DNA of 32,562 nt from Minisyncoccota bacterium (lineage in GTDB: Bacteria > Patescibacteriota > Minisyncoccia > Minisyncoccales > Minisyncoccaceae): positions 1-32,562 of the forward strand of contig JAQUOQ010000003.1 of the NCBI GenBank assembly GCA_028717005.1, in the 5' to 3' direction. How positions within the stretch are numbered: position 1 is the stretch's first letter; each line of letters begins with the position of its first letter. Made by a program: the position numbers and the translations under genes. Shown one piece after another: positions 31,030-32,562 of this stretch. Below the pieces are notes generated by a model. The model did no database searches. It was given only the letters and a program-made list of their open reading frames with translations, and was not told where the DNA came from.

Positions 31030-31058
31030 AATGTTTGGCAGCCAGGCTGCCAAACATT
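31030..31058. repeat. Palindromic element copy 4 (central A, i.e. opposite orientation)
   Basis: AATGTTTGGCAGCC-A-GGCTGCCAAACATT, perfect arms. Confidence 0.92.
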
Positions 31059-31089: not shown

Positions 31090-31118
31090 AATGTTTGGCA
31101 GCCTGGCTGCCAAACATT
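31090..31118. repeat. Palindromic element copy 5
   Basis: AATGTTTGGCAGCC-T-GGCTGCCAAACATT, ends 4 nt before the tRNA. Confidence 0.92.
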
Positions 31119-31122
31119 TGCT

Positions 31123-31207
31123 GGAGAGGTGCAAGAGCGGTTTAATTGGCAGTCCTGGAAAGACTGTGTGTCGAAAGGCACCGAGAGTTCGAATCTCTCC
31201 CTCTCCG
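31123..31207 (+). tRNA. tRNA-Ser(GGA), CCA not encoded
   Basis: Acceptor GGAGAGG/CCTCTCC, anticodon arm CAGTC-CTGGAAA-GACTG, long variable arm, T arm GAGAGTTCGAATCTCTC. Confidence 0.95.
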
Positions 31208-31250
31208 CTTTATGATAAAAGACGCCCTTTGGGTGTCTTTTGTCATAAAG
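31208..31250 (+). terminator. 20-bp hairpin starting at the base after the tRNA discriminator
   Basis: CTTTATGATAAAAGACGCCC-TTT-GGGTGTCTTTTGTCATAAAG, fully paired with two G:U pairs; A-tract/T-tract style core. Confidence 0.8.
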
Positions 31251-31256
31251 AATGAA

Positions 31257-31340
31257 AGAGATTCGAAGCCGGAGGCCCGACGGGGCCGAGGCCGTACCTT
31301 GAGGATTTTCCAGCAGGAAAATACCGAAGGGCGAATCTCT
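31257..31340. repeat. GC-rich structured repeat, unit A
   Basis: Closing stem AGAGATTCG/CGAATCTCT; hairpin GGCCC-GACG-GGGCC; hairpin ATTTTCC-AGCA-GGAAAAT; shares AGATTCGAAGCCGGAGG with unit B. Confidence 0.8.
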
Positions 31341-31356
31341 CTGTTGATATAATAAA

Positions 31357-31478
31357 AGATTCGAAGCCGGAGGGCTGACGAGCCCGACCGTGTCCCTCGT
31401 AGCTCCGAAGGAGCGAAGTGGGAGCCCGTACCGGAGCGCAGCCTCAACAGAGGCTGACGCGTAGGCGAATCTCTCCCT
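31357..31478. repeat. GC-rich structured repeat, unit B
   Basis: Closing stem AGATTCG/CGAATCT; hairpins GGGCT-GACG-AGCCC, GCTCC-GAA-GGAGC, GCGCAGCCTC-AACA-GAGGCTGaCGC; ends CGAATCTCTCCCT, identical to the tRNA 3' end. Confidence 0.8.
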
Positions 31479-32084: not shown

Positions 32085-32120
32085 GATGTTTAGATTTCGC
32101 CGGCCGGCGAATCTCCTAAA

Positions 32121-32562
32121 TTAGTTTTTAAGAGATTGTATTTTTTCGGCCAAGCCCTCGATATTCGGATTTAACGCGAAAGCTTGTTCATAATCGGCAA
32201 TTGCCTTTTCGGTGTCGCCGATTTTTTCATAAAGAGCGCCCTCGGAAAAATATATTTCAAAATTATTGGGAGCGAGCTTTTTTGCTTTTTCATAAGCGTC
32301 TATGGCGGCCTGAGTTTTGTTGGTAACCAAAAAGTTCGTGTTCTCGAAAATCAATCCCAAATTGCTCCAGGACTGGAAATTCTGCGGATCTCTTTGTGTT
32401 GCTATCACCGCGAGCGATTCCGCCTGGGAAGCGAAGTTTTTCGCTTGTTTTTGTTTTTCTATTTGAGTTTCTTCCGGCACATCGCTGTTGATTAGCAAGC
32501 TTTCATCAAATAATCTGCTTGCTTTAACGACATAAAGTTGCGACAACCCTATATAATAATCT
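32121..32562 (-). CDS. TPR-repeat protein, C-terminal part (5' truncated by window edge)
   Basis: Frame open to the window end (DYYIGLSQLYVVKAS...); TPR pattern WSNLGLIFENTN..., AIDAYEKAKKLAPNNFEIYFSEGALYEKIGDTEKAIADYEQAFALNPN. Confidence 0.8.
   Translation of the reverse strand, partial: DYYIGLSQLYVVKASRLFDESLLINSDVPEETQIEKQKQAKNFASQAESLAVIATQRDPQNFQSWSNLGLIFENTNFLVTNKTQAAIDAYEKAKKLAPNNFEIYFSEGALYEKIGDTEKAIADYEQAFALNPNIEGLAEKIQSLKN

Follow-up and report, generated by a model that had tools for sequence, protein, structure and literature searches.

A putative family of gene-less hairpin elements addressed by tRNA tails downstream of tRNA genes in Patescibacteria

Introduction

In Escherichia coli, the tyrT gene is followed by tandem repeats (rtT RNA, RF00391), each of which contains a copy of the tRNA 3′ end. 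rtT is a single E. coli locus, and we know of no multi-tRNA family, inverted copy, or shared core connected with it. Integron cassettes are small mobile units that stand in arrays and carry folded attC recombination sites, which have R′ and R′′ boxes and a GTTRRRY core. In IS608 and REP, a guide sequence immediately 5′ of the foot of a hairpin pairs with the site of cleavage (PMC5934647, PMC8266576). Islands that integrate at tRNA genes are collected by Islander, which requires an integrase and a length of 2–200 kb (PMC4383910). Template switching in replication makes and mends hairpin arms (PMC8794818).

Here, we analyzed a stretch of 32,562 nucleotides from a Minisyncoccota bacterium (assembly GCA_028717005.1, contig JAQUOQ010000003.1; hereafter the window), in which repeated folded units follow a tRNA-Ser gene, and related units in other genomes. 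Computed from assemblies, the evidence leans slightly toward these units being a family of small, non-autonomous, gene-less hairpin elements that reside at tRNA 3′ ends and are addressed by tRNA tails. No description of such tRNA-linked repeats, Patescibacteria included, was found in the open-access literature.

Results

Two folded units follow tRNA-Ser(GGA) in the window

ARAGORN located tRNA-Ser(GGA) at 31123–31208 on the forward strand of the window, where all features described in this section lie. Sequence comparison identified the tail of this resident tRNA, from C56 to the 3′ end (31190–31208), as the left copy and the source of the others. CGAATCTCTCCCT of the T arm (31190–31202) recurs exactly at 31466–31478, as the first-pass annotation of the window had reported, and a 13-nt copy of the tRNA tail arose in 3 of 20,000 shuffles of the downstream sequence. 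The shorter copy placed at 31332 is also present, as an imperfect version of CGAATCTCTCCCT with 11 of 13 positions identical (31332–31344). Additionally, two inverted copies of the tail were found, AGAGATTCGAA at 31257–31267 and AGATTCGAA at 31357–31365, each partnered with a direct copy downstream. The inverted and direct copies are designated X′ and X, respectively. A folded core lies inside each X′/X pair (z = −5.0 in unit 1 and −3.8 in unit 2), and the two structured repeats noted after tRNA-Ser are two elements with strong folds. The spacings of 142 and 134 nt given as unit lengths are correct as spacings, but the true units occupy 31257–31341 (unit 1) and 31357–31478 (unit 2). The segment had been described as GC-rich, and its GC content is indeed 58.7% (31256–31478) versus 42.3% for the window.

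Between tRNA-Ser and unit 1, outside the repeat, HP1 (31208–31250) follows the tRNA directly as a terminator-like hairpin of 20 bp with a 3-nt loop (−28.8 kcal/mol, z = −10.2), and related units, orphans included, have a hairpin in the same place. In unit 1, X′ (31257–31267) is an inverted copy of the tRNA T-loop/T-stem, followed by P2 at 31268–31292 (GCC-GGA-GGCCC(GACG)GGGCC-GA-GGC) and P3 at 31297–31331, a hairpin with the loop AGCA, both assigned from the fold and covariation. X of unit 1 (CGAATCTCTC, 31332–31341) is a direct copy that pairs with X′, according to sequence and fold. Unit 2 begins with X′ at 31357–31365. According to the fold, its P2 (31366–31435) has an inner stem at 31372–31385 with the loop GACG at 31377–31380, and its P3, GCGCAGCCTC(AACA)GAGGCTGACGC, occupies 31436–31460; X, the direct copy of CGAATCTCTCCCT at 31466–31478, forms the right end of the array. 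P2 of unit 2 is interrupted by a nested hairpin (approximately 31388–31424), which is also found in the element of tRNA-Leu(UAG). This small hairpin (TGTCCC.CGTAGCTCCGAAGGAGCGAAGTGGGA), nested in the cores of two units (the window and L047 at tRNA-Leu UAG), is a second-order repeat.

The core is a conserved three-way junction

The fold and its covariation were derived from an alignment of eighteen units (A1). The element is gene-less, has a length of ca. 90–125 nt, and forms a three-way junction in which P1, made of X′ and X, encloses P2 and P3. P2 has the form GSC-GNA-stem-GACG-stem-GA-GSC, and P3 is a stem whose ANCA loop is closed by a C-G pair. Changes on both sides were observed in 25 of 29 pairs, and 92.4% of the cells were paired; none of 500 shuffles was as good, and slid registers likewise fell far below the true register of the fold. 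The tRNA-linked units share one order of parts: the tRNA tail ending in (CCA), HP1, ca. 10 nt, X′, AA, P2 (GACG), P3 (ANCA), X (from C56 to the tRNA end), and the old flank. P1 is imperfect in some copies. At tRNAs with CGAGTCC, P1 is often GGACGAG/CGAGTCC, in which the helix is kept via tandem G-A pairs, indicating that the helix matters and not the copy alone.

When the pairs of P2 and P3 from three alignments were pooled, 30 GT and 15 AC were counted among 1783 cells, compared with 48 GT and 1 AC in the acceptor and T stems of tRNAs from the same genomes. Since GT is rare and AC nearly as common in P2 and P3, this wobble pattern would favor upkeep of complementarity at the DNA level over selection on RNA, the test being modest and partly alignment-dependent. 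In folding of the whole tail-HP1-X′-core-X sequence, RNA parameters preferred pairing of X′ with the tRNA tail, while DNA parameters preferred pairing of X′ with X. This disagreement suggests that the two pairings compete.

Copies in the same genome and distribution in the phylum

The genome of the window (G000) has 657 kb in 59 contigs and 43 tRNA genes. A search of this genome with the start of the unit detected copies adjoining other tRNAs, and a covariance model (R1) found 22 copies. When all regions downstream of tRNAs were read, at least one unit was found after ca. 21 of the 43 tRNAs, so that the copies which the first-pass annotation had proposed to look for at other tRNAs do exist. 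Tandem units stand at several of them, namely tRNA-Asp (period of 148 bp), Pro, Ile, Leu, and Thr. X′..X pairs copy the tail of their own tRNA, with AAACAGGATTCGAA..CGAATCCTGTTT at tRNA-Lys, GCGGGACTTGGATTCGAA..CGAATCCAAGTCC at tRNA-Gln, and AGAGACTTGAA..CAAGTCTCTCC at tRNA-Leu.

Three of the 21 genomes of the family carry the element: G000, and G002 and G009 of another genus with 21 and 17 R1 copies, respectively. R1 gave no copies in the other 18 genomes of the family. Thus, instead of the same segment in all relatives and no copies elsewhere, which had been named as speaking against an att-type or satellite origin, we found few occupied relatives and many copies. At the level of the phylum, the element occurs patchily, in 43 of 380 sampled genomes (11%); this search used stricter filters and may have missed copies, and the genomes are mostly drafts, with sizes of 0.4–1.3 Mb at high completeness, which would suit Patescibacteria. 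Of the 108 non-edge matches from this sample, 61 lie behind a tRNA gene of like orientation, usually at a distance of ca. 50 nt. A second branch is intergenic; here the same core is bracketed by inverted ends particular to the branch, GCGAG..CGAGC (18 matches by a strict rule and more by eye). In this branch (L315–L336, L345, and L346; genomes G300, G109, G275, G165, G287, and G278), P1 covaries and up to nine or more copies are present per genome; the GCGAG..CGAGC ends may form tandem G-A pairs.

No credible copy was found in 40 genomes of other groups, which gave at most two weak matches (best 28.8 bits), and viral contigs contained no true copy, all pattern matches being chance or coding sequence. 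A degenerate pattern, which proved too loose, matched only unrelated, mostly GC-rich genomes in a scan of public genomes, and none of these matches was credible by the model. A match in a Ruminococcaceae sequence (L170, E = 7e-4) was dropped as weak and without a nearby tRNA. Rfam gave nothing over the element in the window and eight further loci at gathering and relaxed thresholds, and RF00391 did not match the element at these loci.

The ends follow the resident tRNA and the cores do not

In 47 units from relatives and the phylum, X matched the resident tRNA over 15.1 nt versus 5.3 nt for other tRNAs, and X′ matched over 9.8 versus 5.4 nt (p ~1e-9 in both cases). The direct repeat starts exactly at tRNA C56 in 41 of 61 cases and ends at the last base of the tRNA gene in 17 of 61; the remaining repeats have either diverged before that point or, in tandem arrays, extend into the spacer. 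On the other hand, the nearest core was found at a different tRNA for 37 of 41 elements, 16 of these within the same genome. Nearest cores at other tRNAs, together with ends that match their own tRNA, indicate that the cores move and the ends are local. The clearest transfer is the unit at tRNA-Arg(UCG) of G009, whose core is 98% identical to that at tRNA-Lys(CUU). Its X, CGAGTCCTCCACGGGGCAC, is the X of the second unit in the tRNA-Lys(CUU) array and is unlike the Arg tail.

In 68 of 84 units, X′ is complementary to more bases of the left tRNA tail than of the right copy; the two are equal in 14 units, and the right copy has the longer match in 2. Part of this excess is the AA after X′, which may be intrinsic, and about twenty cases exceed AA; at tRNA-Thr, the complementarity reaches 18 with the left tail versus 11 with the right copy. 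On contig 5 of G000, X′ (GAGCGATTCAAA) matches the tail of a decayed tRNA-Arg at 12 of 12 positions and not the adjacent intact tRNA-Arg. Judging from these comparisons, X′ is written from the left tail.

At the same locus of contig 5 (L072, ca. 880–1067), the decayed tRNA-Arg has a hairpin inserted in its anticodon region and is followed by the element and then by the intact tRNA-Arg(GCG). In L302 and L286, truncated 5′ parts of tRNA-Ala and tRNA-Gln stand directly before the element, and the intact tRNA lies just downstream, possibly reflecting insertion at the anticodon region.

Boundaries, orphan units, and an empty site

Orphan units without a detectable tRNA upstream were found in G193 (two), G192 (three), G280, G214, and G377, some of which may adjoin tRNAs missed by the program, as in L383. 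The sequence before HP1 ends in CCA in most orphans, and X ends in CCA where it is intact; therefore, HP1 and the CCA of X appear to mark the two limits of the unit. As HP1 is present with orphans, it looks like part of the unit. The flanks share 6–11 nt of identity in five clear cases (CCAGCCA, CAGCCA, GGTACCA, CCACCA, and TGGGGTCACCA), and the junction appears, from these sequences, to need only a few bases of identity.

The first-pass annotation had also suggested a comparison with relatives for empty sites. tRNA-Gly(UCC) of G000 runs straight into a gene, while in G002 the same tRNA and gene are kept apart by a hairpin followed by a related unit, whose core is a variant one. By this comparison, tRNA-Gly(UCC) of G000 is an empty site and that of G002 an occupied one. 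Duplication in genus g3 also takes in the spacer behind the tail, which fits tandem duplication better than clean insertion.

Discussion

Comparison with described systems

Similar to REP/REPIN and the IS200/IS605 family (IS608), the units are gene-less intergenic hairpins. X′ is positioned immediately 5′ of P2, with complementarity to the sequences at both ends, as a putative guide would be. Unlike in REP and IS608, the complement has 7–18 nt instead of a tetranucleotide and corresponds to another tRNA at each site; the core folds into a three-way junction, and many carriers have no Y1 transposase. As in genomic islands at tRNAs, the insert is flanked by direct repeats of the tRNA 3′ end that begin in the T loop. 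However, the element has ca. 100–130 bp, no integrase gene, and an extra inverted copy of the tail, and the integrase and length filters of Islander would discard it. Integron attC sites share with it the folded unit and the arrays, while the element ends in tRNA tails (CGAATCC...CCA) and not in GTTRRRY, has two hairpins on a three-way junction, and carries no cassette genes. It differs from rtT in its occurrence at many tRNAs, its inverted copy, and its shared core. In a comparison with MITEs, inverted ends particular to the non-tRNA branch (GCGAG..CGAGC) were noted, and no parent transposon was found. In terms of sequence organization, the element seems to work like a REP/IS200-type hairpin at the site of a tRNA island, but it lacks a defining feature of each. 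The family is distant from known kinds, and an identified enzyme could return it to a REP or integron-like variant.

Candidate movers

A dedicated integrase, a reverse transcriptase, and a Y1 transposase were considered as movers and rejected, as none tracks the elements. Tyrosine recombinase (PF00589) is present in 12 of 13 carriers, with no match in the carrier G002; it is equally common in relatives without elements. The carrier enzymes include a widespread XerC-like protein and one of 294 aa in G130, G185, G193, and G280. Y1 transposase (PF01797) is absent from six of the 13 carriers (G000, G009, G312, G193, G130, and G185), and reverse transcriptase from seven (G009, G312, G193, G185, G280, G300, and G109). 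The first-pass annotation held that the segment is too small to encode an integrase, and there is in fact no room for a gene, the PF00589 matches being located elsewhere in the genomes; the trans-acting integrase to which it pointed did not emerge, since no integrase is specific to the elements and non-carriers have tyrosine recombinases equally. Because no enzyme tracks the elements, they would depend on something general or unrecognized. Excised or circular forms of the element were not seen. The proposal of an att-type duplication or a tRNA-seeded satellite agrees with the direct repeat starting at C56, the copies at other tRNAs, the empty site, and the tandem arrays. It lacks an element-specific integrase, and it did not take in the inverted copy, the conservation of the core, the spread of the family across the phylum, or the passage of cores from one tRNA to another. 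With no element-specific integrase found, neither "att site" nor "satellite" describes the element fully.

Proposed mode of movement

Comparison of the assemblies shows that the core keeps its fold and has been transferred from tRNA to tRNA as well as to sites without a tRNA, that the ends correspond to the resident tRNA, that the flanking repeats end at the tRNA terminus, and that occupancy varies between relatives. In the mechanism that we propose for a tRNA-tail-addressed element, it would move as folded single-stranded DNA, the conserved hairpins would be recognized by a protein acting in trans, and X′ would serve as the guide, pairing in turn with the left tail and with the tail at the right end. 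The anatomy points to cutting and joining at the tRNA terminus (CCA). Once the element is at a new tRNA, X′ would be rewritten from the local tail by a switch of template from one inverted arm to the other, so that the element would become addressed to the new tRNA, and unequal exchange between tail copies could give rise to the tandem arrays. The geometry of X′ is that of the IS608/REP guides, which favors folded single-stranded DNA; single-strand movement is thus probable by analogy, and an analogy is not proof. A further step, which we put forward tentatively and doubt somewhat more than we believe, is a self-readdressing element whose guide and both ends are rewritten from the adjacent tRNA, so that one core, moved in trans, spreads over nearly all tRNAs.

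Alternative explanations

The main rival, rather unlikely in our estimation, dispenses with dedicated mobility: tRNA-seeded satellites would form through replication errors, with template switching in the palindromic tail and terminator making X′ and duplicating X, slippage producing the arrays, and recombination via the shared TTCGAATCC copying cores between tRNA loci. Such satellite formation would account for the arrays and X′, as the spacer is duplicated in tandem units, the last units are truncated at varied points, X′ derives from the tRNA tail on its left even when that tail is decayed, and template switching is able to create and mend hairpins (PMC8794818). It leaves unexplained why the core is conserved as a fold with fixed loops across many families, why orphans are bounded precisely at CCA, and why a non-tRNA branch has its own ends. 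The conserved, covarying fold is also compatible with functional RNA genes or tRNA trailers, in which alternative pairings of X′ and X with the tRNA tail would regulate processing or read-through; two competing RNA states are predicted (X′ with the tRNA tail or with X), and the sense strand and the position ca. 50 nt after the tRNA are nearly constant. We consider this improbable because most relatives are without the element (present in 3 of 21 family genomes), the cores do not follow tRNA identity, copies can be orphan, truncated, or tandem, a terminator-like hairpin precedes the element in G000, and GT wobbles are few with AC pairs nearly as many. An RNA gene of plain vertical descent was rejected in view of the 3/21 occupancy, the empty tRNA-Gly site, and the cores at other tRNAs.

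The direct repeat from the T loop to the tRNA 3′ end is as in islands (PMC4383910), and one ordinary integrase adjoins a tRNA in G009, as would suit scars of tRNA-integrating islands or prophages that lost their genes and left att repeats. Yet the units are uniform (ca. 115–156 bp) and share one folded core across almost all tRNA isotypes, a larger gene-bearing version was not seen, viral contigs gave no true matches, and a three-way junction is not expected to be common to island ends, making this origin very unlikely. Retrotransposition would start from an RNA with the tRNA tail (CCA) at its end and copy it by reverse transcription into sites that have its last 6–11 nt in common; it would match right ends that equal mature tRNA 3′ ends and orphan sites that share 6–11 nt ending in CCA. 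Since reverse transcriptase is missing from seven of 13 carriers, among them G185, a single contig, and G312, which is rich in copies, and the wobble pattern does not favor RNA, we regard it as the most improbable of these explanations.

Under the preferred reading of a mobile family addressed by tRNA tails, about every second tRNA gene of a small, reduced genome is accompanied by the element, which 11% of the sampled phylum genomes carry. If the ends are rewritten from each target, this would be a natural address-copying scheme, unlike guide RNAs and fixed terminal repeats. The elements point to a trans-acting factor in bacteria with small genomes, and as a set they are clean data for how inverted repeats stay perfectly paired.

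Other repeats in the flanks of tRNA genes

Several further repeats were observed. Other cores follow the same tail-copy logic, such as an Asp-specific core common to two genera (L020 and L251), and at tRNA-Glu(UUC) and tRNA-Gly(UCC) of G002 (L240 and L242) a core occurs with a full inverted T arm and no right copy X. A hairpin repeat, CTTCGCTC..GAGC.ACGCGGTGCAAGCAC, stands flush with the CCA of tRNA-Ala, Phe, Leu, Met, and Val in G000 (L019, L037, L026, L005, L020, and L018); it is present at tRNAs without the element and, at some tRNAs with the element, 3′ of X. In L022 (tRNA-Arg UCG and tRNA-Lys CUU of G000), a third repeat, GAACTGTGTTGCC..GGCAACTCTAGTTC, is found in the same flanks. A weak, below-cutoff match to a group I intron lies near an orphan element (L378, 876–1100, minus strand). 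In the window, two near-identical perfect palindromes of 29 nt, AATGTTTGGCAGCC-A/T-GGCTGCCAAACATT, are located at 31030–31058 and 31090–31118 between an M48 peptidase gene and the tRNA, and similar hairpins (ATGTTTGG..CCAAACAT) occur elsewhere in G000 and in G009. Finally, a small hairpin with tail-like sequence, AGATTTCGCCGGCCGGCGAATCT, lies between convergent genes at 32090–32122 of the window.
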